From Phycisphaeraceae bacterium (lineage in GTDB: Bacteria; Planctomycetota; Phycisphaerae; Phycisphaerales; UBA1924): a stretch of 64,000 nt of DNA. The notes under the pieces were generated by a model that saw nothing but the letters and a program-made list of their open reading frames with translations, was not told where the DNA came from and searched no databases. The DNA lies in contig JAHBXE010000017.1 of the NCBI GenBank assembly GCA_019636625.1, positions 1 through 64,000 on the forward strand. Reading direction: 5' to 3'. The position numbers were made by a program, and so were the translations under genes. Positions 23,407 through 43,426 of the stretch are shown here, piece by piece. The stretch's first letter is position 1. Each line of letters opens with the position of its first letter.

Positions 23407-23682
23407 GCCCCTGTCATATCAGGCTCAACCCGCTGCGGCGACCCGATAAGCCTGAAGCACTTACTGCTGTTCCGGCCGACCCAACCACCTAAACCGGCAC
23501 GGATGCGGTTTCGCGCTGGAAGCTTTGGTCCAGCTCGCATGATCCCTGAAGTTTCCCAAACGTTGTTTCTGAGATTCGGCGGCTCGTTCCGGTTCCGTTT
23601 CCCGGATTTGGCCGTATATTGGATGCACCCCGGCCTGTCCGGATTCGTCAGGAATGTCATCAAGCCAAATTGGAGTCCGAGG

Positions 23683-25176: not shown

Positions 25177-27471
25177 GTGAGGATGCGGCGATTCATTCCG
25201 CCCCTTCTGCTCGCTTCACTGGTCGGCGCTGCGCACGGGCAGGGTGTGCGCTACGACGGTCACCGCGTGGTGCGCGCCTCCATCCGTGACTTCAAGGATC
25301 TGCGCACGGTGCTCGCCTTGACGGACGATGTCTGGTCCCATCGTGTCGGCGTGGGCGGTCCGGTCGATCTCCGCGTCACGCCCGAGCAGTTCGCCGCCCT
25401 CCACGCATCGGGCGTGCCCTACTCCATCGTTGTGCACGATGTGCAGGCGGCGGTGGAGGCGGAGCGTGCGGCGATGGCCCGGGTGCGCGGGCCCGGGTGG
25501 TTCGATACGTACCGCGACTACGGGGAGGTGCGTTCCTTTGCACGGTCGATGGCGCTGGCCAACCCCGCGTTTGCCTCGTTCGAGATCGTGGGTCAATCCA
25601 TCGAGGGGCGGGACATCTTCGCCCTCCGGCTGTCCGCTCCCGGCGGGGTCAACCGCCCGCAGGTCCTGCTCATCGGCGGTCAGCATGCGCGCGAATGGGT
25701 CAGCATTTCGACCGTGATGTATCTCGCGAACGAGCTGGTCGCGGCGTACGGCTCCGACCCGCGCACGAGCACGGCGATGGACAACCTTGAGTTCATCATC
25801 GTTCCGATCGCGAACCCCGATGGCTATGTGCACACCTGGCCCAACGGCGGCAACGAGCGGCTGTGGCGCAAGAACCGGCGCGATACAGGCGCCGGAACCG
25901 GCATCTGCATCGGCGTTGATATGAACCGGAACTGGGGGTTTCAGTGGGGCGGGCAGGGCGCATCGGCCGCCCCGTGCAGCGAGACGTACCGCGGCGATTC
26001 GCCGTTCTCCGAGCCGGAAACGCTGGCGATCCGCGACCTCTCGAATCTCAGCCCGCGGCTGGTGGCCGCGATCGACTACCACAGCTACTCGCAGCTTGTC
26101 ATGTCGCCGTGGGGATACACGGCGACGCTCCCGCCACCTCCGGATGCGGGGTTCTTCAATCAACTGACGTCCTCGATCAGGGACGGCATTCGTGGTTCCG
26201 GCGGTGCGATCTACACCTCGGGCCCGATCTATTCCACGATCTACCCTGCTTCGGGCACCGCCGTGGACTGGTGGTACGGCGGGCGGAACATTTACGGTCT
26301 GACCATCGAGCTTCGCGACACCGGTTCGACGGGCTTTCTGCTTCCGCCGAGCCAGATCATCCCGACCGCGCAAGAGAACTTTGCCGGCCTCATGAGCATG
26401 GTCGAGTACTTCCTCCCGGTTCGCATCTGGCTGCCGTCGTCGCCCCCTGCGCCTTTGACACCCCACGTGCCGACGTCGATCGATGTGGGCATCACGTCCG
26501 GACCCGGTTGGAGTCTTGAGCCCGGTTCCCCCGCTGTGCTCTGGCGCATCGGCACCAGCGGCCCGTTCACGTCTTCGCCGCTTGCCGCCATCGGGCCGGA
26601 CCTGTACAGGGCGGATCTCCCGCCGGTTCCGTGCGGCACGACGGTCGAGTACTACTTCCAGGCCGCCGCGGCGGGAGGGCCCACGCTCTCCTACCCGGCG
26701 GGCTCCGGGGCGCTGCGTTCAACGGCGTACGTACCGCAGCTCGTCTTCGATGACGACATGGAGCAGGACCGGGGGTGGACCGTCATCAACCACCCGAGTT
26801 TGACCGGGGGTGCCTGGGAGCGTGGCGATCCGGTGGGCACGTTCAACCTGAACGGCGACATGGCCAATCCTGAGGACGACGCAACCCCGGACCCCGGCGT
26901 GATGTGCTACGCAACGCAGAACGGCGCGCCCGGCGCCGCCGCTGGACTGACCGACGTGGACGGCGGTCCAACCCGACTGGTTTCGCCGCCGATCAACCTG
27001 GCCGGCGCGGCTTCGGCTCTCGTCCAATACAACCGGTGGGTGTACAGCGCCAACGGATCTCCCGATCCGCTTATCGTGGAAATCAGCCACGACGGCCAGA
27101 GCTTCATGCAGGTTGATCTGGTCACGACGACCAACGGGTGGCAGGCGGCATCGTTTGTGGTGCCTGAAGGCTTCCCGATGACGTCGGCGTTCCACCTCCG
27201 TTTCAGCATCGCGGACGAGCCCAACAACTCGCTGACGGAGGCCGCGATCGACGATGTGCGCGTGTTCGCGCTCGCGTGCCCCGCGTGCTACGCCAACTGC
27301 GACGGCTCAACGGGGACGCCGCTGCTCACATCCAATGACTTTCAGTGTTTCCTGAACAGGTTCGCGGCGGGTAACGCCTTCGCCAACTGCGACGGCTCGA
27401 CCGGGACGCCGCTGCTCACGTCCAATGACTTTCAGTGTTTCCTGAACAAGTTCGCCGCCGGATGCCCATAG
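25177..27471 (+). CDS. Secreted M14 zinc carboxypeptidase with extra beta domains (second of three)
   Basis: This 764-residue paralogue has the same plan as its neighbour: signal peptide, propeptide (YSIVVHDVQAAVEAE), zinc site GGQHAREW and DYHSYSQ, and catalytic Glu in LTIELRDTG. It then adds about 300 residues of beta-sandwich-like sequence (PVPCGTTVEYYFQA, then a jelly-roll-like region with DDDMEQDRGW) before two dockerin-like repeats ending GCP. The extra domains may bind polymer or help adhesion. GTG 25177 directly follows the previous stop; ATG 25183 is an alternative. It is expressed with the flanking paralogues. Confidence 0.93.
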   Translation: MRMRRFIPPLLLASLVGAAHGQGVRYDGHRVVRASIRDFKDLRTVLALTDDVWSHRVGVGGPVDLRVTPEQFAALHASGVPYSIVVHDVQAAVEAERAAMARVRGPGWFDTYRDYGEVRSFARSMALANPAFASFEIVGQSIEGRDIFALRLSAPGGVNRPQVLLIGGQHAREWVSISTVMYLANELVAAYGSDPRTSTAMDNLEFIIVPIANPDGYVHTWPNGGNERLWRKNRRDTGAGTGICIGVDMNRNWGFQWGGQGASAAPCSETYRGDSPFSEPETLAIRDLSNLSPRLVAAIDYHSYSQLVMSPWGYTATLPPPPDAGFFNQLTSSIRDGIRGSGGAIYTSGPIYSTIYPASGTAVDWWYGGRNIYGLTIELRDTGSTGFLLPPSQIIPTAQENFAGLMSMVEYFLPVRIWLPSSPPAPLTPHVPTSIDVGITSGPGWSLEPGSPAVLWRIGTSGPFTSSPLAAIGPDLYRADLPPVPCGTTVEYYFQAAAAGGPTLSYPAGSGALRSTAYVPQLVFDDDMEQDRGWTVINHPSLTGGAWERGDPVGTFNLNGDMANPEDDATPDPGVMCYATQNGAPGAAAGLTDVDGGPTRLVSPPINLAGAASALVQYNRWVYSANGSPDPLIVEISHDGQSFMQVDLVTTTNGWQAASFVVPEGFPMTSAFHLRFSIADEPNNSLTEAAIDDVRVFALACPACYANCDGSTGTPLLTSNDFQCFLNRFAAGNAFANCDGSTGTPLLTSNDFQCFLNKFAAGCP

Positions 27472-27491
27472 TCGTTCAAGAGGATGCCGCC

Positions 27492-28970
27492 ATGAATCGA
27501 TTGTCGTTCGCTCTTTCACTCGTGCTCGCCGCGGGGACCAGCGTTCATGCCCAGCCGGCGGAACCGGTCGAAGCGCCGATGCAATACCGAGGCCACCGGG
27601 CCGTGCGCGTCGAGGCGCGGACCGCCCGGGAATTGCAGGTCATCCGCGCCCTGGCCGATGAGGTGCTGACGTGTTCCGGAACGGGCATCGGGCGGTTTGA
27701 TATCCGCGTGACGCCGCCCAAGTACGCGGCGCTGGTCGCGGAGGGCATCCGTCACGAGGTGCTCATCCCGGACATCCAGGCGCACATGGACCAGATCTGG
27801 GCCGATGACGCCCGCGTCCGCGCCGGGGATGATCCCTCGTGGTTCGCGACGTACCGGACGCTCACGGAGTTCGAAACGCGGATGCAGTACTACGCGACGA
27901 ACTACCCGAACCTGGCGACGCTCTCGAACATCGGCACATCGATCCAGGGTCGCCAGATCAAGATGCTCCGCATCACCGGGCCGGGCTCGACCGAGACGCG
28001 GCCCGCGTTCATCGTCCAGGCCAACCAGCATGCCCGCGAGTGGGTCACGCCCCATGCCGCGATGTACATGGTGGATCGGTTCTGCGAGACCTACGGCACC
28101 GACCCGCGCATCACGAACGTGGTCAACAACATCGACTTTCACTTCATCGTGACGGTCAACCCGGATGGGTACGCGTACTCGAATCCGAGCAACCCATCGT
28201 GGCGGAAGAACCGGCGTGCGAACAGCAACAACCCCGCCACCGGGTGCAGCACGACGTTTGGCGTCGACCTCAACCGCAACTGGGGGTACCAGTGGGGATA
28301 CGACAACACGGGCTCGAGCGGGACGTGTTCCAGCGAAACCTACCGGGGCGTGGCGGCGTGGTCCGAGCCGGAACTCGCGGGCGTCAAGTCGCTGGTTGAC
28401 TCGCTCGCCGCGCAGGGGCGGTTGAAGGTGCACTGGGATATCCACGCCAACGGACAGTCGATCCTGTCGCCCTGGGGGTTCCGCACGACCCCCGCGCCGC
28501 CGGACCTGCCGCTGATGAACACGCTCGGGCAGATGATCCAGACGGGCATGGCCTCGGTGCGAGGGACGAACTACCCGTACGGGCAGGGCTCGGTGATCCT
28601 GTACCTCAACAACGGGAACACCCGGGACTACACGTACGGCGTTCACGGCGCAATGGCATGGACGATCGAGCTGGGTGGGAGCAGCTTCCAGCCGGCCGTG
28701 AGCCAGATTCTGCCGCTCTGCCAGGAGGCGCTGGAAGGTCTTCTTCCGGTGGCGGAGTACTACATCCCGCCCGCCCCGCCGCCGTGCTACGCCAACTGCG
28801 ACGGTTCCACCGGCTCGCCGCGGCTCACGTCGAACGACTTCCAGTGCTTCCTGAACCGGTTCGCCTCGGGCGATACCTACGCCAACTGCGACGGCTCCAA
28901 TGGAGTACCGATGCTCACATCAAACGACTTCCAGTGCTTCCTGAACAAGTTCGCTTCGGGATGCACGTGA
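27492..28970 (+). CDS. Secreted M14 zinc carboxypeptidase with dockerin-like tail (third of three)
   Basis: This 492-residue protein has a signal peptide (MNRLSFALSLVLAAG), a propeptide (VLIPDIQAHMD) and a catalytic domain with NQHAREW and HWDIHANGQS. The catalytic Glu is in WTIELGGSS. The substrate-pocket end therefore differs from the other two (GG-S in place of R-D-T-G), pointing to another side-chain preference. Two dockerin-like repeats end the protein in GCT. The ATG at 27492 begins the signal peptide, 20 bases after the previous stop. The gene faces the aminotransferase gene convergently. Confidence 0.93.
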   Translation: MNRLSFALSLVLAAGTSVHAQPAEPVEAPMQYRGHRAVRVEARTARELQVIRALADEVLTCSGTGIGRFDIRVTPPKYAALVAEGIRHEVLIPDIQAHMDQIWADDARVRAGDDPSWFATYRTLTEFETRMQYYATNYPNLATLSNIGTSIQGRQIKMLRITGPGSTETRPAFIVQANQHAREWVTPHAAMYMVDRFCETYGTDPRITNVVNNIDFHFIVTVNPDGYAYSNPSNPSWRKNRRANSNNPATGCSTTFGVDLNRNWGYQWGYDNTGSSGTCSSETYRGVAAWSEPELAGVKSLVDSLAAQGRLKVHWDIHANGQSILSPWGFRTTPAPPDLPLMNTLGQMIQTGMASVRGTNYPYGQGSVILYLNNGNTRDYTYGVHGAMAWTIELGGSSFQPAVSQILPLCQEALEGLLPVAEYYIPPAPPPCYANCDGSTGSPRLTSNDFQCFLNRFASGDTYANCDGSNGVPMLTSNDFQCFLNKFASGCT

Positions 28971-30433: not shown

Positions 30434-31333
30434 ATGAAGGTCCGAATTCTTCTCTGTGCAGTGCTGGCCGCGGCGGCGGTGGCGGGGTTTGCCCCGAAGC
30501 AGCAACCCGTCCCTTCATCCTTTGGGGGTGAGAAGTTCATCACTCGCCCGAGCCGGGACTCGGTGCTTGGATTCTCGTTTCCGGCGGAGATCGTGGAGGT
30601 GCTGGTCAAGGGTGGTCAGCAGGTGAAGCGGGGGGAGCCGCTGATCCGGGCGCGAGATGAGGACGTTCGAGCGCAGCGAGACTTGGCGAAGCTGATCACG
30701 GAAGTGGATCTGGATGTGCAGAAGGCGCAGTACGGGGTGGATCTGGCGCGAGTGGAGTTTGACGCCCAGAAGGAACTCCGGGACAAGAAGGCGGGTGGGA
30801 ATGTGATCGACTACGCCCGGGCCGAGGCGACGCTGAAGGCCCGGACGGTCGACCTGGAAATCGCGAAGCATGAAAGAAAGCAGCAAGCGCTGCAACTGGC
30901 GATCCGGCAGGCCCAGCTGGACCGGCTGACCATCCTCGCGCCGTTTGATGGTGTGATTGACGATGTCATCGTGGATGTCGGGCAGGTGAAGCGCGAGACG
31001 GAGCCCGTGCTCCGGATCGTGAACACGGATCCGTTGTGGATCGATGTGCCGACGCCGACCTCGCAGACCTTGACGCGCGGGCTCAAGACGGGCGACCCCG
31101 CGTGGGTAGTGCTGGACTTGCCGGGGGACGGGGCGGGCAAGGTGTGGAAGGCCAAGGTAATCGAGGTCGGCGCGGCGGCCGACCCGGCCAGCAACACCCG
31201 TCGCGTGCGGGTTGAACTGGCGAACCCCAGCCAGTGGCCCTCGGGCATGACCGCGTGGGTCCGCTTTACGCCCCCGGAGGGCGAGTGGGCCGCACGTGTG
31301 GTTGAGCCGGACAAGCGTGCCGCGGCGAAGTAA
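30434..31333 (+). CDS. HlyD/RND-type periplasmic adaptor protein
   Basis: This 299-residue membrane-fusion protein has a signal or anchor sequence (MKVRILLCAVLAAAAVAG). The first half of a lipoyl-like domain (VEVLVKGGQQVKRGEPLI) leads into a helical hairpin at about 80-165, then the second half (LTILAPFDGVIDDVIVDVGQ) and a beta-barrel. Adaptors of this kind link an inner-membrane transporter to an outer-membrane channel, but neither partner is present nearby. It starts a same-strand group with two further HlyD-containing proteins and a SecA-like ATPase. Confidence 0.9.
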   Translation: MKVRILLCAVLAAAAVAGFAPKQQPVPSSFGGEKFITRPSRDSVLGFSFPAEIVEVLVKGGQQVKRGEPLIRARDEDVRAQRDLAKLITEVDLDVQKAQYGVDLARVEFDAQKELRDKKAGGNVIDYARAEATLKARTVDLEIAKHERKQQALQLAIRQAQLDRLTILAPFDGVIDDVIVDVGQVKRETEPVLRIVNTDPLWIDVPTPTSQTLTRGLKTGDPAWVVLDLPGDGAGKVWKAKVIEVGAAADPASNTRRVRVELANPSQWPSGMTAWVRFTPPEGEWAARVVEPDKRAAAK

Positions 31334-31352
31334 AGCAGTTCGGAGCATCGAC

Positions 31353-33347
31353 GTGATCGATCTGTCAAGCGTCAAGACCCCTGGGTGGCAGCGTGTGGTG
31401 GCGGAGTTGGCCTCGCCCGCGCCGGATGATCGCGCGTTTCTGGCGAGGCTGCTGAGCGTGCTGGGCCAGGTGTCGGGGTCGAAGCAGGCCGTGCTGTTCT
31501 CGGTGGACCGCGGGGAGGGCGAGGCGTCGCCGGAACCGCGGGCGGTGCTGACGTGGCCGCCGGGCCCTGAAGCGCAGGCGGTGGGGGCGATCGAGAGCGC
31601 GGGAGAGGTTCGGGGCGCGGCGAGGTCGGCGGCGGACTCGGGTCAGGTGCGGGTGTTCGGGCTGGAGAAGGCGGCCACGTTCTACGACGACACGGAGAAG
31701 GGGTCGATCATCGCAGTGCCGGTGCACAGTTCGCCGGAGCCGACGGGCCCGCGCGGCGTGATCACGCTGCTCATCGAGCCGCGGTCGCGGCAGGCGCTTC
31801 AGACAACAACGGCGATGGTGGAAGTCCTGGCGGGGTACACGAACCTGCACGGGGTCCGGCAGCAGTTGCAGCGCGTGAAGGCCGCATCGGCGGCGTTGGA
31901 CCTGGCGGCGAAACTGATCGCTTCGGTGAACACCGCGAAGGGATTCCGCGGGGCGGTCATTCAACTCGCGAACGACCTGTCGAGGCAGATCCGCGCGGAC
32001 CGCGTGGCGGTCGGGTGGGTCAAGGGGATCGGGACGGGCGGTTCGGGCGCGGTGCGGTGCGTTTCGATCAGCGATACGGAGCACATCGACCGGCGGATGG
32101 CGATGGTGCAGAAGATCGAGGCGGCGATGGATGAGTGCCTCGACCAGGAACAGACGGTGCTGTACCCGCCGCCGCCGGAACAGGGGCAGGCGGGGCCGGG
32201 GGCGCAGGGCGGCCCCGGGGGCGATGTGGTGCTGTCGCAGGCGATCACGCATTCGCACCGGGAACTGGCGGCGTCGGACGCACGGCTCAAGGTTGTGTCC
32301 TTTCCGCTACGCGAGGGCGACCGGATCCTCGGTGTCGTGACGGTGGAATCCACCGCGGAAGGGCCGGCGGACATCGGCTCGATCGAGCTGGTGCAGTCGG
32401 CGCTGGACCTCGTGTCGCCGACGCTGGCGGTCCGGCGGAGCGACGACCGGACGCTGGCGGCGCGGGCGTGGGTGTCAACGGTCAAGGGCGGGGCGTGGCT
32501 GGTCGGGCCGCGGCACACGGTGTGGAAGATGGTGGGGGTTCTGGTGCTGGTCGCCGGGATCGTGGTGACGTTCGTGCGTGTGCCGTACCGGGTGCAGTCA
32601 CCGATGGAGGTGCAGGCGAGGGTGAAGCACACGGTGTCGCTGCCGATCGACGGGGTGATCGAGTCGCTGGGGGAGGGTGTGGCGCCGGGACGGATCGTGC
32701 AGCAGGGCGATGTGCTCTTCCAGATGGACACCATGCAGGCCAAGGACCAGCTGCTCGGCGCGACGGCGCAGAAGATCGAGGCCGAGAAGGAGGCGGACAG
32801 CCACCGCAAGGCCGGGAAGCTCGGCGAGGCGCAGCAGGCGGAGGCCAAGGCGGCGCAGGCGGAAGCACGCATCCGCGAGATCCAGCGGATCATCTCCCAG
32901 GCGACGGTGAGGGCGCCGATCACGGGGACGATCATCGCCGGCGACTTGCAGGACAAGATCGGGGCCTCGGGCAAGCTGGGCGATGCCGTGTTCCAAGTGG
33001 CCCCCCTGAATGACATGATCGTGATTGCACGGGTGAGTGACCGGGATATCGCGCTCATCCATGAGCAGTCCGAAGGGGTGGAGCCGACGAGGGGGCATAT
33101 CGCCACCAAGGCGGCGCCGGGGGAGAAGCTGCCGGTGGTGATCGAGCGGATCGTTCCGCTGGCGCAGCCCAAGGATGGAAAGAACGTGTTCGAAGTGCGG
33201 TGCCGGCTCGAAGACGGCGCGGTGCAGCACCGGGCGCTGCGGCCGGGAATGGAAGGGTTCGTGAAGCTGGACACCGGTCGGCGGACGCTGCTCGATATCG
33301 GGACGCGGCGGATCCGTGACCAACTGCGACTCTGGCTTTGGTGGTGA
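31353..33347 (+). CDS. GAF-like sensor domains fused to a HlyD adaptor
   Basis: This 664-residue chimera carries two GAF-like cytosolic domains at about 25-165 and 175-360 (GSIIAVPVHSS; VVSFPLREGDRILGVVTVES). One transmembrane helix (391-410) follows, then a periplasmic adaptor with split lipoyl motif (LPIDGVIESLGEGVAPGRIV), a coiled-coil hairpin at about 460-520 and a barrel domain. A cytosolic sensor wired to a periplasmic adaptor by one helix is unusual. GTG 31353 is chosen because GGAG lies 7 bases upstream; it is 19 bases after the HlyD gene. It probably forms part of one envelope complex with its neighbours. Confidence 0.87.
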   Translation: MIDLSSVKTPGWQRVVAELASPAPDDRAFLARLLSVLGQVSGSKQAVLFSVDRGEGEASPEPRAVLTWPPGPEAQAVGAIESAGEVRGAARSAADSGQVRVFGLEKAATFYDDTEKGSIIAVPVHSSPEPTGPRGVITLLIEPRSRQALQTTTAMVEVLAGYTNLHGVRQQLQRVKAASAALDLAAKLIASVNTAKGFRGAVIQLANDLSRQIRADRVAVGWVKGIGTGGSGAVRCVSISDTEHIDRRMAMVQKIEAAMDECLDQEQTVLYPPPPEQGQAGPGAQGGPGGDVVLSQAITHSHRELAASDARLKVVSFPLREGDRILGVVTVESTAEGPADIGSIELVQSALDLVSPTLAVRRSDDRTLAARAWVSTVKGGAWLVGPRHTVWKMVGVLVLVAGIVVTFVRVPYRVQSPMEVQARVKHTVSLPIDGVIESLGEGVAPGRIVQQGDVLFQMDTMQAKDQLLGATAQKIEAEKEADSHRKAGKLGEAQQAEAKAAQAEARIREIQRIISQATVRAPITGTIIAGDLQDKIGASGKLGDAVFQVAPLNDMIVIARVSDRDIALIHEQSEGVEPTRGHIATKAAPGEKLPVVIERIVPLAQPKDGKNVFEVRCRLEDGAVQHRALRPGMEGFVKLDTGRRTLLDIGTRRIRDQLRLWLWW

Positions 33348-33437
33348 CGACGGAGCTTCGAACGCGCCGGGTGGCACGTTGCACGGGAGCGCGGTTGGGG
33401 GGAAGAGTGGGGGGTGGGGGGAGCACGTCGGTTTGTG

Positions 33438-33467
33438 TTGACTTGCGATTCGGCTCTTTGGTGTAGG
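33438..33467 (+). promoter_or_regulatory. Possible internal promoter before the M50 gene
   Basis: TTGACT (33438-33443) and TGTAGG (33462-33467) are 18 bases apart and lie in the 130-base gap before the PqqD-M50-HlyD gene. The -35 is good and the -10 weak. Confidence 0.3.
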
Positions 33468-33477
33468 GCGACCTGAC

Positions 33478-35658
33478 ATGGCCTCCGAACGACCAACTTT
33501 CTCGCCCCTCTGGCACCGCGTGCGGGCCTTGAAGCCGCGGCTGCGTCCGCACGTGCAGATCACGCGTCAGCACTATCGAGGGAGGCGCTGGCACGTCGCG
33601 CACGATCCGGCCTCGAACCAGTTCTACCGGCTTAGCCCGGTGGGGTACGAGTTTGTGGGCCTGCTGGATGGCAGGCGGACGGTGGAGGAAGTCTGGAGCA
33701 TCTCCCTGGGAAACCACGGCGACGGCGCGCCGACCCAGCAGGAGGTGATCGAGCTGCTGGGGCAGATGTACAGCTCGAACCTCCTGGCGATTGATTCCAC
33801 TCCGGAGACGGAGCAGTTGCTCTCGCGAGGGCGGGACCGGCTCAAGCGGCGGATGGCGCAGCAGGCGATCGGCCTGATGTACTTCCGGCTGCGTCTGTTC
33901 AACCCGGACCGGATTCTCACGTGGCTGGAGCCCATTTTCCGCCCGCTGCTGAACCGGTGGGGTTTCCTGCTGTGGCTGGCGTGGGTGGGGTACGGCCTCT
34001 ATGCGGTGGTGCCGCACCTCGATGAGCTCCAGGCGATGTTCAAGACATCGATGGCGCCCGCGAACCTGATCTGGCTTTCGGTGATCTTCATCATCATCAA
34101 GGCCATACACGAGACCGGGCACGGCGTGATCTGCAAGCGGTTCGGGGGCCAGGTGCCCGAGTTCGGGGCCATGCTCCTGGTGCTGGTTCCTGCGCCTTAT
34201 GTGGACGCCTCCAGCGCGTGGTCCTTTGCGAGCAAGTGGCAGCGGATCGCGGTTGGGGCGGGGGGGATGATCTTCGAGCTGGCGATCGCGGCGGCGGCGG
34301 TGCACATTTTCGCCTCCGCGCCCGACACGTTGACGAAGCAACTGGCGTTCAACGCGATCTTCACGGCGAGCATTTCGACGATCTTCTTCAACGCCAACCC
34401 GCTGATGCGGTTCGACGGTTACTACATCCTGTCCGACCTGCTGGAGGTTCCGAACCTGATGAACCGGAGCACGCGGATGCTCCAGCACCTGGCGCAGAAG
34501 TACATCTACCGGTGCGAGAACCTGCGCCCACCGACAACGAACCCGACGGAGCGGTGGATCCTGATCGTGTACGGGACATTGGCCGTGGCCTACCGGGTAT
34601 TTCTGTTCATCACGATCACCCTGTACGTGCTGGGGCAGTTCTTCGCGGTCGGGCTGGTGCTGGCCGTGTGGTCGGCGGCGGCGTGGTTCCTGATCCCGCT
34701 GGGCAAGTTCGTGCACTGGCTGGCGGCCGGGCCGCAACTGGCCGAGCACCGGATCCGGGCGATCGCGACAACGCTGGCGCTCGCGGCGGGGGCGTGGCTG
34801 TGCCTCGGGGTGGTCCGGGCGCCGGATCACCGCCGGGCGCCGGGTGTGGTGGAGAGCCGGGCGAGCGCGGGCGTGTACTTCGGAGCGCCGGGCCGGGTGG
34901 TCGCGGTGCACAAGCGCGTGGGGGATCGGGTGCGGGCGGGGGATGTGATCGTGACGTGCGAATCGCCCGCGGTGGAGTACGGGATTGCGATGACTCGGGC
35001 GGAACTCGCCGAGGTGCAGGTGCAGGAGCGGATGTACACCGCCGGCAATCCCGCGGCCGCCCAAGTGGCCAGGAGCATCATCGAGGCCAAGTCAGAGACG
35101 CTGCGGACGCTGCTGGACCTGCAATCAAAGTTGGAAGTCCGGGCGCCGCAGGATGGTGTGCTGGTGCCCGGCGCCGCGGGACGCGATCCGGGGGAGTTTG
35201 CCGGCGTGCACGTGCAACGCGGGCAGTTGCTGTGCGAGGTGGTGGACCCCGATCGGGTGCGGATCGCAGCGACGATGCCGACCTCGCATGCGCAGCCGTT
35301 GATTGAGCTGCCGCCGGGTGCGTACACGGTGGAGATGCGTTCGGTGTCGATGCCCTACGACGTGGTGCGGGGCGGCGGGGTTCGGATCGTTGAAGCGGGG
35401 CGTCGGACCATACCGCACGCGGCGCTGGGGTTCCAGGGCGGAGGCACGGTGGAGATCGACCCGCAGGACCAGCGAGGGCTGGCCACCAAGTCGAGCGAGT
35501 TCACGGTGTACATCGATGACCTGGTGAAAGACGGCCGGGCGTGGCGCTCCGTCCCGGGCGAGCGGGTGACGGTGCGGTTTACGCTGCCGAGCAAGCCGCT
35601 GTTGGCGCAATGGTGGCATCGGGTGGAGAAGCTGCTTCAGGCGAGGACGGATATCTGA
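33478..35658 (+). CDS. PqqD-like / M50 intramembrane protease / HlyD hybrid
   Basis: The product has 726 residues in three parts. Residues 25-110 resemble PqqD, a winged-helix fold that binds peptide leaders (FYRLSPVGYEFVGLLDGRRTVEEVW). Residues 155-445 are a multi-pass M50 site-2-protease-type domain with zinc motif HETGH (211-215) and the distal NANPLMRFDGYY (305-316, Asp313). Residues 460-726 are a HlyD-like periplasmic part (GAPGRVVAVHKRVGDRVRAG). All zinc-site residues are intact, so proteolysis is plausible. It could recognise, cut or pass a substrate between cytosol and periplasm. The neighbours are two adaptor proteins upstream and a SecA-like ATPase downstream. Confidence 0.9.
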   Translation: MASERPTFSPLWHRVRALKPRLRPHVQITRQHYRGRRWHVAHDPASNQFYRLSPVGYEFVGLLDGRRTVEEVWSISLGNHGDGAPTQQEVIELLGQMYSSNLLAIDSTPETEQLLSRGRDRLKRRMAQQAIGLMYFRLRLFNPDRILTWLEPIFRPLLNRWGFLLWLAWVGYGLYAVVPHLDELQAMFKTSMAPANLIWLSVIFIIIKAIHETGHGVICKRFGGQVPEFGAMLLVLVPAPYVDASSAWSFASKWQRIAVGAGGMIFELAIAAAAVHIFASAPDTLTKQLAFNAIFTASISTIFFNANPLMRFDGYYILSDLLEVPNLMNRSTRMLQHLAQKYIYRCENLRPPTTNPTERWILIVYGTLAVAYRVFLFITITLYVLGQFFAVGLVLAVWSAAAWFLIPLGKFVHWLAAGPQLAEHRIRAIATTLALAAGAWLCLGVVRAPDHRRAPGVVESRASAGVYFGAPGRVVAVHKRVGDRVRAGDVIVTCESPAVEYGIAMTRAELAEVQVQERMYTAGNPAAAQVARSIIEAKSETLRTLLDLQSKLEVRAPQDGVLVPGAAGRDPGEFAGVHVQRGQLLCEVVDPDRVRIAATMPTSHAQPLIELPPGAYTVEMRSVSMPYDVVRGGGVRIVEAGRRTIPHAALGFQGGGTVEIDPQDQRGLATKSSEFTVYIDDLVKDGRAWRSVPGERVTVRFTLPSKPLLAQWWHRVEKLLQARTDI

Positions 35659-35732
35659 GCGGCGGTCGTGCAAATCCGCAAATGTGCAGATAACCAAAGT
35701 GCAAAGCGGAGGCGAACACGGGAGTACCTGGC

Positions 35733-36095
35733 ATGGGGCGTTTGAATCCGGCATTCTTGGAGCGGGTGGAGAGTTTCTCAGATCGCATGGTGGGCGTTGC
35801 GGAGACGCTGGCGGGACAGCGGTCACTGAGTCGCGTCGTAGACCAGATGATTGGATGTGGCACATCTGTAGGAGCGAATGTGTTCGAGGCTGACGAGGCG
35901 CTGAGTCGGGCTGACTTCGCAAAGACTCTCGGTATAGCAATAAAGGAGGTCAGCGAGACCCGTTTCTGGCTGCGACTGGCAGCCCGACGGAAGTGGGTCA
36001 AGCCTGAACGACTTGCGTCTTTGCAGAAGGAAGCGACCGAGCTGAAGTTGATTCTCGGAGCCATGATCTCCAGAACAAGAAGGCACGCATCCTGA
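35733..36095 (+). CDS. Four-helix bundle protein (S23/IVP family)
   Basis: This 120-residue all-helical protein matches the four-helix-bundle family first found in 23S rRNA intervening sequences. Marks are SLSRVVDQMIGCGTSVGANVFEADEALSRADF near the middle (given here only as key residues SVGANVxEA) and KEVSETRFWLRL. The family is common as a stand-alone gene and its role is unknown; nucleic acid binding has been proposed. The DNA of this gene and its flanks has visibly less G+C (about 53% in sampled lines) than its neighbours, so it was probably inserted between the M50 and SecA-like genes. Confidence 0.85.
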   Translation: MGRLNPAFLERVESFSDRMVGVAETLAGQRSLSRVVDQMIGCGTSVGANVFEADEALSRADFAKTLGIAIKEVSETRFWLRLAARRKWVKPERLASLQKEATELKLILGAMISRTRRHAS

Positions 36096-36132
36096 TTTGG
36101 TCTTTGGCAATTTGCCCTTTGTCGCTTTGATC

Positions 36133-38127
36133 ATGTCACAAGCCCTCACCAGATACTCCGCCTTGTTCGATTCCGTCCGCAGCCGGCGGCGGAAGTCGGA
36201 TGTGCCCAAGGGGCTCGACGTGTTGGCGGCGCGGGCCGGCATGCTGGTGGAATCCCGCCGCGTGACTCTCGGCTGGCTGCGGGCGCAGGCGGAAGCGGTC
36301 GAGGCGCTGTCGGGCGAGATTCGGAACCATTCGGAAGCAGCGCTGGACCAGGTGATCTCGGAAACGCGGGAAGCGTTCGTGCGCGGGCGGCACGATGCGG
36401 CGGTGGTGCGGCGAGGACTGGCGATCGTGCGGGAAGTGGCACGCCGGTGCACGGGTGAGGAGGCCTACCCCGTTCAGGTGATGGCGGCGCTCGCGCTGTA
36501 CCACGGCCGGATCGTGGAGATGCTCACCGGGGAGGGCAAAACGCTCACGGGCTCCATCGCGGCGCCGCTGATCGCGTGGCGGAGGCGTCACCTGCATGTG
36601 TTCACGGTGAACGACTACTTGGCGAGGCGGGATGCGCAGTCGCGTGAACCTATCTACCGCCGGTGCCTGCTTCGGGTGGGGGCGATCCAGCAGGAGATGG
36701 GTCCGCACGAGCGGTTCGAGGTCTACGCCCGTGCGATCGTGTACGGCACGCCGAAGCAGATCACGGCGGACTGGCTCCGGGACCTGATCCGGATGGGGGC
36801 GCACTCATCGGCGTGGACGGGGCGGCAGTCGCTGATCGCGATGGGTGAGGCGGGCGGCGGCCCGATGATCCCCGGTTTGCAGGCGGCGCTGGTGGATGAA
36901 GCGGACGCGGTGCTGATCGATGAGGGCGTGGTGCCTCTCATTATCGCGAGGGCGCGGCGGACGGACGACATGGCGGAGGTGTACCGGCGGGCGGCAACGA
37001 TCGCGGCGAGCCTGGATGAAGGCCCCGACTACACGATCGATCACCTGCGGAAGAAGGCGGAGTTGAAGGAGCGGGGCCGGTACCGGTGCGAGCAGTTGTT
37101 CGCGCAGGCCGAGGAGCCGATCTGGCGTGCCAGACGCCGCGCGGAGGAACTGATCCGGCAGGCCCTCATCGCCCGCCACTGCTACCTCAAGGGGCATCAG
37201 TACCAGATCGTGGACGGGCGGATCGTCATCGTGGATGAGTACACGGGGCGGCTCCTGCCGGACCGCAACTGGGAGCACGGTCTGCACCAGGCGGTGGAGG
37301 CGAAGGAGCGAGTCGAGGTCACGGCCGACCGGGAAACCATGGCAAGGATGAGCTTCCAGCGGTTCTTCCGGAGCTATCCATTCCTGTGCGGCATGACGGG
37401 CACCGCTGCCGATGCCACGGGCGAGATGCAGACGGTGTACAACCGACCGGTCATCCGCGTGCCCACCCATCGCCCGATGATCCGCGAGCAATGGCCGACG
37501 CGAGTATTCCGGCGTGGGGAAGCGAAGTGGAACGCGGTCGCCGCCGCGGTGGAGGAGGAACATGCCAAGGGGCGGCCCGTGCTCGTGGGGACGCGGTCGA
37601 TCGAGGCATCGGAACACTTGTCGGAGAAACTCGCGGCACGTGGGCTCGCGCACCGCGTGCTCAACGCGAACTTTGACCGAGAAGAGGCGGAGCTGATCTC
37701 CGACGCGGGCCGGGGCGGGCCGAACGCTTCGATCGTCGTCGCGACGAACATGGCCGGGCGCGGCACGGATATCAAGCCGGATGAAGCGGCGATCGCCGCC
37801 GGAGGGCTTCACGTCATCCTGACCGAGATGCACGGGGCCAAGCGGATCGACCGGCAGTTCATCGGGCGGTCGGGACGTCAGGGAGATCCGGGTTCGGCGC
37901 AGATCTTCCTTTCTCTCGACGATGAACTGGTTCGTTTGCACGTCCGAGGTGTGGCGGCGGTGATGCGACGGGCCGGGACGGGCGAAGAGCTGTCCGGCGC
38001 GGCGAGGGCCGCGGCGACGAAGCTGTTCCGCTTTGCCCAGCGGGAGTCGGAAGCCAGGGCAAGGCGCGGCCGGGCGGGCGTCATGAAGCAGGATCACTGG
38101 ATCGACAAGCACCTGCCGGGGATGTGA
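36133..38127 (+). CDS. Short SecA-family ATPase
   Basis: The product has 664 residues, against about 850-950 for housekeeping SecA. Motor motifs are intact: Walker A LTGEGKT (131-137), DEAD 255-258 in VDEADAVLID, GMTGTA (420-425), ATNMAGRGTDI (537-547) and GRSGRQGDPG (578-587). The preprotein-binding region is present (IVIVDEYTGRLLPDR). The protein stops 77 residues after the last motif, so most of the scaffold and wing domains and the zinc tail are missing. This suggests an accessory motor with its own substrates, not the general translocase. The ATG at 36133 has no clear Shine-Dalgarno. It converges on the AsmA-like gene with a 7-base gap. Confidence 0.88.
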   Translation: MSQALTRYSALFDSVRSRRRKSDVPKGLDVLAARAGMLVESRRVTLGWLRAQAEAVEALSGEIRNHSEAALDQVISETREAFVRGRHDAAVVRRGLAIVREVARRCTGEEAYPVQVMAALALYHGRIVEMLTGEGKTLTGSIAAPLIAWRRRHLHVFTVNDYLARRDAQSREPIYRRCLLRVGAIQQEMGPHERFEVYARAIVYGTPKQITADWLRDLIRMGAHSSAWTGRQSLIAMGEAGGGPMIPGLQAALVDEADAVLIDEGVVPLIIARARRTDDMAEVYRRAATIAASLDEGPDYTIDHLRKKAELKERGRYRCEQLFAQAEEPIWRARRRAEELIRQALIARHCYLKGHQYQIVDGRIVIVDEYTGRLLPDRNWEHGLHQAVEAKERVEVTADRETMARMSFQRFFRSYPFLCGMTGTAADATGEMQTVYNRPVIRVPTHRPMIREQWPTRVFRRGEAKWNAVAAAVEEEHAKGRPVLVGTRSIEASEHLSEKLAARGLAHRVLNANFDREEAELISDAGRGGPNASIVVATNMAGRGTDIKPDEAAIAAGGLHVILTEMHGAKRIDRQFIGRSGRQGDPGSAQIFLSLDDELVRLHVRGVAAVMRRAGTGEELSGAARAAATKLFRFAQRESEARARRGRAGVMKQDHWIDKHLPGM

Positions 38128-38134
38128 TTCACCG

Positions 38135-41100
38135 TCACTTCCGCTGCCGAACCCGGACAACCAGGCGTGACGGCCCCGCGTCACTCGGGATCGGTTTCCC
38201 GCCCATGACGGCGATTCGGGCAGCGCCCTCGCCGGCGCGAGCAGCGATTTCGCGCCGGACACCGGCGAGGCGTGCATCGATCAACTCCACAGCGCCGGCA
38301 CGGGTGCGCCGGGTCTTGGCGGTCTCCGCGCCGGGACCCTGCATGGCGTAAAGCTGATCCATGGAATCCTCGACATCCGCCAGTTGACGGCTGAGCGCTT
38401 CCAGGCGGCGGCTCGGCTCGGCGTTGGGCGATACCCCGACGGCCCAGGCCGAGGCGGCCGCGAGCAGCTCCGACCTCGCGACCAGGAGTGAGGCGCGACG
38501 GGATCGCAGTTCGTCGGCCAACGACGCGGCCTGCTCGAGCGGCGGATTGGCGCGTCGGGCCACCAGGTCGGCGTCCTGCATTCCAAACTGGTGTTCGATG
38601 GCGACCTGTACGTTGGAGTAGACCGCCGCGCGATCGAGGACGGAACGGAGGAAGCTCAGATCGCGGTTCGACAAGGCGGTGACGCCGTTGGAGAAGGTGA
38701 GGATGATCGGCTCTTCTTCGACCCAGACAGCTTCGGGATCGTCACCGCCGAAGAGGCCGGCGAACCCGGCGACTATCTTCGCCGGAGCGCTCACGACCGC
38801 CGTTGCAACGACTTGCCCCGCGGCGAGCGCGACGGCTCGAACGAGGCTCCCGGTTGTGAGGCCGCTCTGGCTGAGCGTGACATCGACGGGAAGGGTGATC
38901 GACCCGTCGGGCGCTTCGACGGCGGCGATCGCGGCGTCGATGGGCACGGGAAGAGCCATGAAGCGTTCAGCAGGGCCCGCCGAGGGCTCGGCGTAGCGGA
39001 GGTCCGTGACAATCAGCCTGGCGCGTGCATCAACGTTCCCATCGTCGCGGGCGCGGAGTTCAAGTCGGCCGTCGAAGACACCCCCGCCGATGGAGGCGCC
39101 CGCCTCTTTGGCCAGGCCCCGCAGAGCCAGAAGCTCCACGCCGGAGATGGCCGCGACCGCGCGGCCCTGCGGCGCCGGGTAAAACGCCATGGTGCCCGAG
39201 GCGATGCACTGGGAGAAGAAGTCGCGATCCTCCGTCTCGCTGCCAGTGTCGTTCGAACCCGACGACTTCGGGAGCGAGACCTTGCCCGCCCCGACCGTTG
39301 CGTTGAACCGGACGGGCCTCTCACGCTGGAGGAGCAGAGATGAGAGACCCCGAACCTCAGCATCGAGCGCGTTGATCGGGATGGTGACCGGCGGCGAGAC
39401 GGCCCGGTCATCGAAGGAGGCGTCGATGCCGGAGACGGTGAGGCGGTCGATGCGAATCTCTGGTCCCGGGGACTTCGGGCGCGCGGGGCTGGGCGGTTCC
39501 GCAGCCGCGTGGCCCGAGGGCGCCGCAGGGGTGGTGTGGGCCGGGTCGGGCGAATCCAGCACCTTCAGCCGAAGTCCAAGAATGTGGATGCCCGATTCAT
39601 CGCGCCAGGCCCGCCCCGTCAGGTTGCGGACCTCCAGTTCGCGTGTGGTGATGTTCCCGGTGGAGGGATCAAGGCGGATGCTGTCCGCTTCGATGTGCTC
39701 AACACCGGCGAGCACGGTGTCCCCCTGTCGGAACTGCGTACCGCGGATGTCGAAAGCCAAGTCAATGCCGCGGGAAAGATCGATGGTGGAGCCGCGCCGT
39801 TGCACCTTCGCTCGCGCCGCGATGGTGGTCGAGAAGGCCCCATCGCTCAGCGGTGCTCCGTCGATGATCGGGGCGAGTGGCGGCGCCACCGAGGGCAACG
39901 GCCCGGCGTTGATGCCGGTGGCGGAGATGGAGATGTTCAGGCTCGGCTCAGCCGCGAAAAGGGCGGATGCGAACTTCACCTCGAAGCGATTGATCAGAGG
40001 ATCAACGCGGCCGGTCGTAACCAGCTCCAACGGAGCGTTGGACTCCGCCGCGGCGCCAAGCAGGCGGAACGGTCCGGAAGAGACAATACGCACATCCGCG
40101 AGGGATACCGGCGTGGCAGGCGGCGGGCCAGCGAAGGTGAGCCGGGATACCCCGACGTCAACCGAGTCGACTGCGATGAGCGGGGGAGGTCGCGAGGCCG
40201 CCGAAAGCAGCGTGGAAACCCCCGGAGCGGGCGAGGTGAGCGGTTGACGGGGTGACGGTGGAGGCGAGGGGGCAATCGTTTCTGCCGTGCCGGGCGTGTT
40301 GGATCGGACGGTCAGGCCGAGAAGAGTGAGCGTGCCATCTTCTTGTGCCGCGGCGTGGGCGGTAAGCCCGGAGGAGGCGATGCGAGCGATGTGCAGATCC
40401 CGTGAATCGAGGGCGAACGACGACACATCAATCGTGAAGTCCTTCATCGCAGCGAGCGGTTCACCTTCTCCCGCGGCACGGTAATCGAAGTTTGCAATGG
40501 TGGCGGAGACAGCCAGTGCGTCCGGTGTTCCGCGAGCGAGTGCCAGGGTTCCATCGACGCGGAACTCCCCGGTGGTGAGCGGACCGTCGATTCCGGGCGG
40601 CAGATACGCGGCGGGAATCGCGGTGGAAACACCCGTCGCACGGATGGAGGAAGAGAGTCCCGCACGCTGGCCCGAGGCGGCGAGCGTGCCCGTAACGGTG
40701 ACTGATTCCGCTAGGCCCGGTGCTACCAGTCGGACATCGAACTCACCAACGCCCGCGCTGTCAGACGAGGGGTTGAGAGCAAACCCTCGCATCGCGGCGT
40801 CGAATGTCGCGCGCAATTGGACGGGCGACTTGGCCGCAGAGTCGGACCAGGAGATCTCCGACTGCTCGATCGAGAGAGAGCCGGTCGATATGGGGCCAAG
40901 ACCGCCGATCAACGCGAGAGGATCGGGGATCGGCGCCGGCGCGGCTTCGGGCTTCGGTGCCGTTGGAACCAGTTTGATCCCGAGCAGAGAGACGCCGCCC
41001 TGATCACGCGACGCGGCGAGCGAAAGGCCGGCGATCCGTCCACCCTCCACGACGACTCCGGATTCGAGCAGTTCCGCACGGCTCAGTTCGGCGATGGAGA

Positions 41101-43426
41101 TGCTCGCGAGCGTCTGTGTTCCATTGGAGAGCGAAACATCTCGAGCCGCGGCGGCGAGCCGAACTCCGTTTGCCTGGTCGGTCGCCGACAACGACAGGTC
41201 GGCGGCGAACGCGCCATCGGTCAGTGTGGGCTCAATGCCAAGGGGTTCAAGGTACGGGGCGAGGCGGGAGAGAGCGAGGGCCTGGCCACGCACGGCGATG
41301 GACGCTTGGAGGGACGTCGTCGTGGCAGCCAGGGAGCCATTCACCTTAAGCGACTCGAGCAGGTGCGGCGCTGTGAAGCCGAGGGTGAACGTGCCGGGTG
41401 CGGCGGCCGTATCGCCGTTGTCCGAGATGCGGATCCCGCGCAGCTCGATTCCGGAATCGGTGAACTCGATCGGCGGCAGTTCGGGGGTGTTCAGATCGTC
41501 GACACGGAGTTTCAGGTTGTCCCACGTGAGTGAGTTGAGTGTCAGGCGCGGAAGCCGGAACTGCGGAGCCGATGACGGCGAGGCCGGCGTGGCGACGATG
41601 GTGCTCGGGGCGTTCGAAGCCAGCGCGGGCGGCGTGGCCGCGGATGAAGCGCTCGACGCGTGAGGATCAACGCGAAGGCCGAGCAGTTCGAAGCGCCCAT
41701 CCTTCAGGCGCCGGATGTTGAGCGATGGGCCCGAACCGTGGATCGAGTCGATGACAAGACCCGATTCCGGCGTGTGCGAGACGCCGCTGAATGTCACGGG
41801 GCCGAAATCGAAGAGCGATGATTCCCGGTCGCTCACCACGATCCGATCCAGCGTGACGGACGCCGCGGCCGGGTTCGTGGCCGTCGCGGCGGCTTCGAGC
41901 GTGAACGTGACGGCGCCTTCGCGCAGGGTGGACTCGACGCCGAGCACCTTCAAGTACGGTTCGAGCGCCTCGGGTCGGATCGCGCCGAGGGCCAGTTCGG
42001 CGCGCGCTCGTGGCTCGGCGGCAAAGGGGGTCGCGACCACGTTGGCCCGGATCGTCCCGATGATACCCGGGATGGTCATCTCGGCGGTGACCGTGGACTT
42101 CGTTTCGGCGGGCCCGCTCGATCGAAGGTCGCTCGCGGCGAGAGACTTCATCGCGAACAGGTGCGTCTTCTGCGGGATGAACGCCCGGTCGTCCAGAGAG
42201 GCGGACAGGTCGGAGGCCGTGACCCGGTCGATGCGCCATTGGAACGGTGAGCCGGAGGCAGCACGCCCGGTCGCGGCGATCGGCGGCGCGGCCGGCGGAG
42301 TGGTGCGAGGAGCCGTGGCCGTGGGAACCGGTCGAGCGTGCGAGGGAGAGAACGCGGCGAAGCGCAGGTGGCCTTCCCGGGTGCGTTCAGTGCGCAGCGA
42401 GCCGTTGGCAATCTGGAGGTCGCTGATGTGCAGGGAAGAGGGCGAGACAGACGCAATATCCAGTGAGACACGCTTCAGCGAGGCGACCACGTCCGAGTCC
42501 GCGGTGACGGCGACATCGGTCAGCGAGGCGGTGCCCTGCAAGGCGCCGGGCACGCCGGACGAGGGAGCGAGCGCAATCTTCCCGCGGCCGCGCAGGTTCA
42601 GCGATCGGCTCTCGGCGCCGACGCCGAAGGGTTCCAGGTACGGTCCGAGGCGTTCGGCACGCAGGCCCCGCAGGGAAAGGGCAATGTCGGCGTCGAGCTT
42701 CGCCGCGGCGAGATTGGCGTTTGCCTCGACGGTCGCGCTGCTGAAGAGGTCCCGCGAGGAGGCATCGAACTCGACGCGCACGGGGCGGCCCTCTCGCCCG
42801 AGGTCGGTCACGCGCAGGTCCATGCGGATCGTGTCCTCGTAGGCGGGGGTCAGCGTCTCATCCTTGATGGCGATGGCGAGTTTGTAGAGCCGGAGGGCGT
42901 GGATCTCCAGCGGCGAGGAGAACGACGGCGCCTTTGGAGTGGCGGACGTCGCGGAGGGAGTCGCGGGCTTGGGCGAGGCCGATGATGCGAGAAGGTTCAG
43001 CAGCGGGATCGAGCCGTCCGCCTTTCGATCAACCGAGACGGACACGCCCTCGGCCTCCAGGCGGAACGCGACGAGCCGGAGCTGCAGAAGTTGAAGCGTG
43101 GAGAGGTTCGCATTGGCGTACTCCGCCTTCAGGACCGGCTGTGACCCATCTTTGGATGTAACGACGACATTCCACAGAGAGGCGTTCGTGCCGAGCAGGC
43201 TCAGTTTCATCCGCTGGTACTGGCAGTCCAGCCCCATGGCCCGCGCCGTGCGCGAGATCGCGGTGGGGAGCAGGATGAGCAGCGTCAGCCGGAAGACCAG
43301 CACGGCAACCAGCGCGATGACCCCGAGGCGGATAAGCCGCCGACGCCATCGAGACTTCTTCGCGCCGGCAGGAGTTGGGGCAGGCGACGTGGCCGGGCTT
43401 GGCGAACCGGAGGCGGGAGTCATCAT
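38135..43426 (-). CDS. Giant AsmA/DUF748-like envelope protein
   Basis: This 1763-residue protein is anchored by one N-terminal helix (about 31-55) after a Pro/Ser-rich cytosolic tail. The rest repeats beta-strand modules such as LEPLGIEPTLTDGAFAADL and LEPFGVGAESRSLNLRG. Stretches such as FDDRAVSPPVTIPINALDAE are typical of DUF748, and the C-terminus is helical and charged. The plan fits AsmA/TamB-group proteins that span the periplasm and help lipid or protein transfer to the outer membrane. Its start overlaps the stop of the lipoprotein gene upstream (ATGA), so the two are coupled. Linkers are Ala/Pro/Ser-rich. Confidence 0.82.
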   Translation of the reverse strand: MMTPASGSPSPATSPAPTPAGAKKSRWRRRLIRLGVIALVAVLVFRLTLLILLPTAISRTARAMGLDCQYQRMKLSLLGTNASLWNVVVTSKDGSQPVLKAEYANANLSTLQLLQLRLVAFRLEAEGVSVSVDRKADGSIPLLNLLASSASPKPATPSATSATPKAPSFSSPLEIHALRLYKLAIAIKDETLTPAYEDTIRMDLRVTDLGREGRPVRVEFDASSRDLFSSATVEANANLAAAKLDADIALSLRGLRAERLGPYLEPFGVGAESRSLNLRGRGKIALAPSSGVPGALQGTASLTDVAVTADSDVVASLKRVSLDIASVSPSSLHISDLQIANGSLRTERTREGHLRFAAFSPSHARPVPTATAPRTTPPAAPPIAATGRAASGSPFQWRIDRVTASDLSASLDDRAFIPQKTHLFAMKSLAASDLRSSGPAETKSTVTAEMTIPGIIGTIRANVVATPFAAEPRARAELALGAIRPEALEPYLKVLGVESTLREGAVTFTLEAAATATNPAAASVTLDRIVVSDRESSLFDFGPVTFSGVSHTPESGLVIDSIHGSGPSLNIRRLKDGRFELLGLRVDPHASSASSAATPPALASNAPSTIVATPASPSSAPQFRLPRLTLNSLTWDNLKLRVDDLNTPELPPIEFTDSGIELRGIRISDNGDTAAAPGTFTLGFTAPHLLESLKVNGSLAATTTSLQASIAVRGQALALSRLAPYLEPLGIEPTLTDGAFAADLSLSATDQANGVRLAAAARDVSLSNGTQTLASISIAELSRAELLESGVVVEGGRIAGLSLAASRDQGGVSLLGIKLVPTAPKPEAAPAPIPDPLALIGGLGPISTGSLSIEQSEISWSDSAAKSPVQLRATFDAAMRGFALNPSSDSAGVGEFDVRLVAPGLAESVTVTGTLAASGQRAGLSSSIRATGVSTAIPAAYLPPGIDGPLTTGEFRVDGTLALARGTPDALAVSATIANFDYRAAGEGEPLAAMKDFTIDVSSFALDSRDLHIARIASSGLTAHAAAQEDGTLTLLGLTVRSNTPGTAETIAPSPPPSPRQPLTSPAPGVSTLLSAASRPPPLIAVDSVDVGVSRLTFAGPPPATPVSLADVRIVSSGPFRLLGAAAESNAPLELVTTGRVDPLINRFEVKFASALFAAEPSLNISISATGINAGPLPSVAPPLAPIIDGAPLSDGAFSTTIAARAKVQRRGSTIDLSRGIDLAFDIRGTQFRQGDTVLAGVEHIEADSIRLDPSTGNITTRELEVRNLTGRAWRDESGIHILGLRLKVLDSPDPAHTTPAAPSGHAAAEPPSPARPKSPGPEIRIDRLTVSGIDASFDDRAVSPPVTIPINALDAEVRGLSSLLLQRERPVRFNATVGAGKVSLPKSSGSNDTGSETEDRDFFSQCIASGTMAFYPAPQGRAVAAISGVELLALRGLAKEAGASIGGGVFDGRLELRARDDGNVDARARLIVTDLRYAEPSAGPAERFMALPVPIDAAIAAVEAPDGSITLPVDVTLSQSGLTTGSLVRAVALAAGQVVATAVVSAPAKIVAGFAGLFGGDDPEAVWVEEEPIILTFSNGVTALSNRDLSFLRSVLDRAAVYSNVQVAIEHQFGMQDADLVARRANPPLEQAASLADELRSRRASLLVARSELLAAASAWAVGVSPNAEPSRRLEALSRQLADVEDSMDQLYAMQGPGAETAKTRRTRAGAVELIDARLAGVRREIAARAGEGAARIAVMGGKPIPSDAGPSRLVVRVRQRK

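Follow-up and report, generated by a model that had tools for sequence, protein, structure and literature searches.

A planctomycete gene cluster with a SecA-like ATPase, proposed as a branch of a type-I-like secretion system for large LEPR-motif proteins

A locus in which a SecA-like ATPase accompanies HlyD-type adaptors was reported by Kamneva, Poudel and Ward in 2015 (PMC4452313), who proposed the SecA-like protein as an ATPase standing in for an ABC transporter and called the role of the locus completely unknown. Their locus comprises a SecA_DEAD protein without SecA_SW, an M50-HlyD protein, a GAF-HlyD protein and an HlyD protein, sometimes together with an OEP/TolC gene; Methylorubrum extorquens AM1, for example, carries such a locus (operon META1p2402-2399 in that paper). 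The same locus is described here at positions 30434-38127 of a stretch of 64,000 nucleotides (the window) from a Phycisphaeraceae bacterium (GenBank assembly GCA_019636625.1, contig JAHBXE010000017.1, positions 1 to 64,000). Besides a canonical SecA, this genome encodes a SecA_DEAD protein without a full SecA_SW, with M50-HlyD, GAF-HlyD and HlyD genes as neighbours, and the phyla concerned overlap with those of the 2015 study. An earlier note on the window had taken the system to be undescribed; both the locus and the idea of a SecA-like ATPase were in fact already in print. No cargo, leader or PqqD domain is named in that paper, and what is added here is a likely cargo family carrying the LEPR-XLL motif, a leader motif, and a sister branch that lacks the SecA-like gene and has a matching leader variant. 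In a literature search that left subscription papers and preprints mostly outside, no paper was found to join PqqD, HlyD, SecA and M50, which is weak evidence, and the mentions of LEPR-XLL found concern no export machinery and do not tie the motif to an exporter.

The cluster consists of five genes, all on the forward strand. They encode an HlyD-type adaptor, a GAF-HlyD adaptor, a PqqD-M50-HlyD fusion, a four-helix bundle and a short SecA-like ATPase; this composition, with the four-helix gene as an insertion, had been read from the sequence in the earlier note and is borne out by profile matches. The other four genes are referred to below as the module. From the comparisons that follow, the cluster is probably the planctomycete branch of a type-I-like secretion system that has no local ABC transporter and exports large LEPR-motif surface proteins. 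An export role of the module is very likely, and the LEPR proteins are, to judge from their association with it, highly probable cargo. Genome records contain many giant bacterial proteins, several thousand residues long; how the LEPR-XLL giants leave the cell is stated in no paper found. Joined to these giants, the exporter-like locus, an orphan since 2015, gains a likely cargo together with candidates for leader and receptor; this proposal can be tested in culturable Alphaproteobacteria.

LEPR-motif proteins and the module

Two sets of genomes were used: 61 genomes of the order, searched for the M50 fusion, the SecA-like protein, GAF-HlyD and LEPR, and, independent of these, 119 genomes drawn evenly from the phylum. 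The M50 fusion is present in 48 of the 61 order genomes, the other 13 having no M50 gene. From their coordinates, the SecA-like gene adjoins M50 in 45 of these 48; in two (G020 and G044) it is found on another contig and not close to a contig end, and in one (G060) the linkage is cut off by contig ends. The SecA-like protein of G020 (G020:C17 / G020:C26; L004) is 75% identical to that of the window and is encoded on a different contig from M50, so the linkage can break. Matches to GAF-HlyD (E<=0.001) occur in 50 of the 61 genomes, and the strong ones stand beside M50. Some genomes hold two copies of the module, about 55% and 33% identical to the window, and the same genes are found together on plasmids of Alphaproteobacteria. 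Its conservation in the order as well as in Alphaproteobacteria shows that the module is not a chance arrangement: the families stay adjacent, a point that the earlier note had proposed to test, and the neighbourhood is neither unique to this genome nor scattered in its relatives.

The note had also raised the idea of a co-occurring family of precursor proteins, and such a family was found in the LEPR-XLL proteins, which carry a short N-terminal motif described by a 24-residue model, NCBIfam NF012209. When order genomes are called LEPR-positive at E<=0.05 (the curated cut-off gives 40, with one borderline genome unassignable), LEPR is found in 39 of the 48 module-positive genomes and in 0 of the 13 module-negative ones (Fisher 8e-8). 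In the phylum set, LEPR is found at E<=0.01 in 8 of the 119 genomes, from 6 families. All eight have an M50 match of <=1e-79, compared with only 6 of the 111 LEPR-negative genomes (Fisher 4e-9), and two of those six (G000 and G040) have weaker or variant LEPR motifs. The phylum set is the stronger evidence for a link between LEPR and the module, the order set being weakened by kinship. The planctomycete extracellular motif PF07595 was considered as a leader variant and rejected; it was found at E<=0.01 in 6 of the 119 genomes and is not specific, since three of the six have no M50 gene.

A direct physical association is seen on alphaproteobacterial plasmids, where loci were picked by their M50 gene and not by the giant. 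In all eight LEPR-type plasmid loci read, immediately upstream of the module stands a gene for a giant of 12-39 kb (about 4,000-12,900 residues), with the motif at the start of its frame. The hosts are Pseudosulfitobacter, Alisedimentitalea, Mesorhizobium, Methylosinus, Pontibrevibacter, Pseudohalocynthiibacter, Rhizobium and Thalassospira. These giants open with LEPRxLL(S/A/N)AD, as in FEALEPRLLLSADF and MEALEPRFLLSADP; for two of them (L082 and L088) the annotated starts are internal and the motif was recovered by reading the open frame upstream. The loci hold GAF-HlyD-like and M50 genes, usually together with DUF3467, SecA-like and HlyD genes, and sometimes TolC. DUF3467 proteins (~100-135 residues) recur in L075-L080, L087-L089, L101, L136 and L142, often encoded between the giant gene and the adaptors, and their plasmid relatives lie nearly all in exporter-type loci. 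At planctomycete module loci a LEPR gene lies within 5 kb in 5 of 60 cases, compared with 0.86 expected (P 0.002), and motif proteins are mostly scattered.

The motif comes after a basic N-terminal extension and has the form FExLEPRxLLSAD. The stretch before it, in 15 examples, measures 11-51 residues and is mostly basic and non-hydrophobic. The maximum hydropathy over 12 residues before the motif is <=1.3, compared with 3.0 for the Sec-type signal of the window's HlyD adaptor (MKVRILLCAVLAAAAVAG). As the sequence before the motif is basic and non-hydrophobic, LEPR proteins are unlike ordinary Sec substrates. Two of the adjacent giants each have 23 matches to RTX calcium repeats, and RTX repeats are a hallmark of type I substrates.

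The source genome itself encodes four such proteins, on four other contigs; they open with LEGR, LESR, LEAR and LEPR variants and have 2058, 2151, 3066 and 731 residues, respectively. The LEGR, LESR and LEAR copies are mostly under the NF012209 cut-off and their proteins match no Pfam family, while the 731-residue protein is a cyclophilin-type isomerase. LEPR-motif proteins of L064, L066, L070, L073 and L157 seem to have a cyclophilin-like domain right after the motif (confirmed by Pfam in L157 only). Cyclophilin-like LEPR proteins are perhaps a conserved core cargo.

The fusion protein, the adaptors and the proposed route

The PqqD-M50-HlyD gene (33478-35658) encodes a predicted leader receptor, intramembrane metalloprotease and adaptor in one chain (M50 3.5e-7, PqqD 7.5e-5, HlyD_3 5.4e-6). 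The PqqD-like domain spans residues 39-103 (33592-33786) and matches Pfam PF05402 at 7.5e-5, exactly at the cut-off. In the biosynthesis of ribosomally synthesised and post-translationally modified peptides (RiPPs), PqqD domains bind leader peptides, and for this reason the domain is proposed as the LEPR receptor; that it would bind the LEPR leader is a proposal slightly favoured over its opposite. The M50 site comprises a zinc-binding HETGH motif at residues 211-215 (34108-34122) and a second motif, NANPLMRFDG, at residues 305-314 (34390-34419), of which H211, E212, H215, N305, N307 and D313 are invariant in a 35-member alignment. HExxH and NPxxxxDG are kept in nearly all of ~80 fusion homologues, with placement in the membrane judged from sequence only. 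This site may cleave or gate the leader at the inner membrane, a step for which the case stands evenly balanced.

Residues 20-402 of the fusion match the daptide intramembrane protease model NF041824 at 2.5e-54 over nearly its full length, and all 35 sampled relatives match the same model. At 184.9 bits, compared with a curated cut-off of 300 bits, the fusion is a relative of the daptide protease and not a member of its family. That a PqqD domain is fused here to a protease closest to the daptide model would suit a RiPP-like maturation role, in which the cluster modifies and cleaves a protein N-terminus as in daptide biosynthesis and export is incidental. However, no modifying enzyme is conserved in the loci and the associated proteins are large repeat proteins, not peptides, and such a role is most improbable.

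The last part of the fusion, residues 462-610 (34861-35307), is an HlyD/lipoyl region recognised by HlyD_D23 and HlyD_3. The other two adaptors are encoded upstream. The first gene (30434-31333) specifies an HlyD/RND-type periplasmic adaptor with a Sec signal peptide (RND_mfp 1.4e-28, HlyD_D23 2.9e-15), and adjacent orthologues of it occur in L005, L006, L095, L104, L105 and L133. The second (31296-33347) specifies an adaptor with GAF-like domains towards its N-terminus and HlyD at its C-terminus (HlyD_3, E 1.6e-12). Its GAF matches, at residues 52-183 and 224-374, are weak (E 0.003-0.006) and fail the Pfam cut-off. M50 proteases often act in signalling; together with the GAF-like domains, this raises the alternative that M50 is a site-2-type regulatory protease and GAF-HlyD a sensor, such that the cluster senses the state of the envelope and controls surface proteins which leave by another route. 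This is very unlikely, as cargo genes are adjacent in all the LEPR-type plasmid loci read, these loci also hold TolC and HlyD genes, and neither an anti-sigma factor nor a regulator family is conserved there.

The earlier note had remarked on the absence of an ABC pump and of a TolC-like gene. Neither is found in the cluster, and annotated cargo loci have no ABC transporter. The only ABC transporter gene found in the window lies on the reverse strand at 1178-3211, unlinked and 27 kb from the cluster, so that the absence holds only locally. No TolC-family protein was found among the 28 open reading frames of the window that were scanned, whereas related loci do carry TolC (L078, L089, L142 and others, among them those of Methylosinus, Thalassospira, Azospirillum and Burkholderia). 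The HlyD parts of the three adaptors are rather likely to dock on a TolC-family pore, and the exported chain would pass via the adaptors to this pore and outward.

The SecA-like ATPase and the source of energy

The SecA-like gene (36097-38127) encodes a short ATPase with NBD1, PPXD and NBD2 (SecA_DEAD 1.1e-78), in which P-loop and PP_bind matches were found and SecA_SW was not. Its true start is probably at 36133, since relatives align from about residue 13. The SecA motor core is complete, and the motor motifs (TGEGKT, DEAD, ATNMAGRGTD and QFIGRSGRQGD) are intact, as the earlier note had stated. The protein stops where the long scaffold helix begins and has no wing, two-helix finger or C-tail. 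It is not the sole SecA of the genome, a possibility rejected because a separate full-length SecA, which the note had proposed to look for, is present on another contig in an open frame of 1369 codons.

One alternative is that the SecA-like protein works on SecYEG in the manner of SecA2, taking LEPR proteins to the periplasm, and that M50, HlyD and TolC carry out a second step. The protein is genuinely related to SecA, its motor motifs are intact, it has a preprotein-binding domain and is matched by the NCBIfam SecA2 models at 1e-99 to 1e-135, and the cluster encodes no other inner-membrane channel. Yet its scores of 332-452 bits fall below the curated SecA2 cut-offs of 725-1100, and the protein has none of the parts with which canonical SecA acts on SecYEG (scaffold, wing and two-helix finger). 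LEPR proteins also have no hydrophobic Sec signal, and annotated loci contain no SecY2 or accessory Sec gene. An accessory Sec route is unlikely on this evidence.

In the secretion pathway preferred here, the SecA-like protein would be the natural counterpart of an isolated SecA DEAD motor without its C-domain. It may bind the unfolded chain via its PPXD and push or feed it, which could prove right or wrong with equal chance. Nearly all SecA-like copies retain the Walker A, DEAD and motif V/VI residues, so hydrolysis matters. Put together, these steps outline a pathway of its own kind for proteins among the largest that bacteria make. In it, PqqD would read the LEPR leader, M50 would gate or cleave it, and the place of the ABC transporter would be taken by a SecA-type motor that has no SecYEG-binding half and drives the chain straight through HlyD and TolC; a sister branch would act alike, without a SecA-like protein and with LEPRxMFDAA as leader. 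As a whole this scheme is tentative, a possibility held with less than even confidence, and the SecA-like protein as motor is unproven. Should it prove to be the motor, then SecA-family ATPases are able to energise transport that bypasses SecYEG.

To the sister branch belong M50 proteins from Azospirillum, Burkholderia, Variovorax, Niveispirillum, Tistrella and a plasmid of E. coli, with identities of 25-29%, each accompanied by a gene for a large repeat protein. The genes are ordered giant gene, TolC, adaptor, HlyD and M50, as annotation shows for five of the six; the record from Tistrella has no annotation. Leaving out that of E. coli, the five large proteins have a basic start followed by ALE(P/A)RxMFDAA or ALEPRVVYDAS. 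Leader variant and exporter branch thus go together, the giants of the SecA-less branch having the LEPRxMFDAA-type motif. A locus in Thalassospira is intermediate, with LEPRILLSAD, DUF3467 and TolC but no SecA-like gene. The adjacent proteins of Magnetospirillum and Phyllobacterium do not have the motif, and in Indioceanicola none was found. On a Variovorax paradoxus plasmid (CP063167.1, 19413-68132; L166 and L170), a 48.7-kb gene for about 16,200 residues, with the motif ALEARYMFDAAA, lies beside TolC, adaptors and M50.

Several observations weigh against the proposed pathway, or against parts of it. All support for it is comparative. The source genome has divergent motifs (best E 9e-4), all of them away from the cluster. 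In the order, the module needs about 5 changes on the housekeeping SecA tree, with only 3-5 independent gains or losses, and in 3 well-supported independent pairs LEPR follows the module in 2.1 on average and never the opposite, a number that cannot reach significance. Of 35 fusion relatives, only 21 match PqqD at E<=0.01, and a structure model of the fusion built from 3 sequences (predicted local distance difference test score 43) was too poor and was not used. No SecA-like gene was seen in the sister-branch stretches read. Moreover, the SecA-like gene at the module position in G089 (L136:11157-13106; SecA_DEAD 9e-23) has no Walker A, DEAD or motif VI, and is a probable pseudo-ATPase retained in the operon. 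The existence of SecA-less loci and of this ATPase-dead copy argues against an obligate SecA-like motor.

The same two facts make a serious rival of a chaperone role, or of ordinary Sec as the power source. In the chaperone reading the SecA-like protein would be a leader-handling chaperone or targeting factor, and energy would come from the housekeeping SecA, the proton-motive force or folding outside with calcium. Exporter loci without a SecA-like gene or other recognised ATPase occur in Thalassospira, Azospirillum, Burkholderia, Niveispirillum and Tistrella, and RTX repeats could pull by folding outside. On the other side stands the conservation of the ATPase residues in nearly all other copies. 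In addition, several genomes of the phylum with an unlinked M50 gene have a short SecA-like gene elsewhere, and a SecA-like partner could therefore act in trans. A chaperone role is, on balance, quite unlikely. If the SecA-like protein is not the motor, the SecA-less branch raises the question of what drives the export of proteins of >1 MDa.

Between the M50 and SecA-like genes of the window lies the four-helix gene (35733-36095), of the 23S rRNA intervening-sequence type (23S_rRNA_IVP, PF05635, 6e-16). It was rejected as a member of the module and is a local insert, since it has no match at 1e-4 in 54 related loci. Directly downstream of the SecA-like gene, and convergent with it, a 1763-residue DUF748 (AsmA-like) protein is encoded on the reverse strand (38135-43426). 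Upstream of the cluster, three tandem genes on the forward strand (22621-28970) encode zinc-carboxypeptidase-like proteins, each of which ends in DGSTG..LTSNDFQCFLN.FA.G repeats that resemble, as judged by eye, a dockerin-type C-terminal anchor.

Comparison with known systems

The NF012209 model resembles the present case in that an N-terminal motif marks proteins which stand beside the module or co-occur with it; it differs in that the model is a label. With the daptide and YydH-type RiPP proteases (NF041824 and NF058609), the resemblance lies in the first 400 residues of the fusion, which cover almost the whole daptide model, HExxH included; the fusion differs in carrying an HlyD half, and its proposed cargo consists of large proteins and not of small peptides.

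As in SecA2 accessory Sec systems, a second SecA-family ATPase exists beside the housekeeping SecA. In contrast to those systems, the SecA-like protein described here has no C-domain (scaffold, wing and two-helix finger) and travels with HlyD and M50, there is no SecY2, and the cargo has no Sec signal. Type I secretion (HlyB-HlyD-TolC) is similar in its HlyD-type adaptors, in the TolC-family pore of related loci and in the RTX repeats of some adjacent giants. The differences are that the module loci have no ABC transporter, that the motif is N-terminal, and that there are three HlyD-type proteins, one of them fused to a protease. The module would work in a type-I-like way but has no ABC transporter, the defining part of that family, and its SecA-family motor is without the C-domain expected of accessory Sec.

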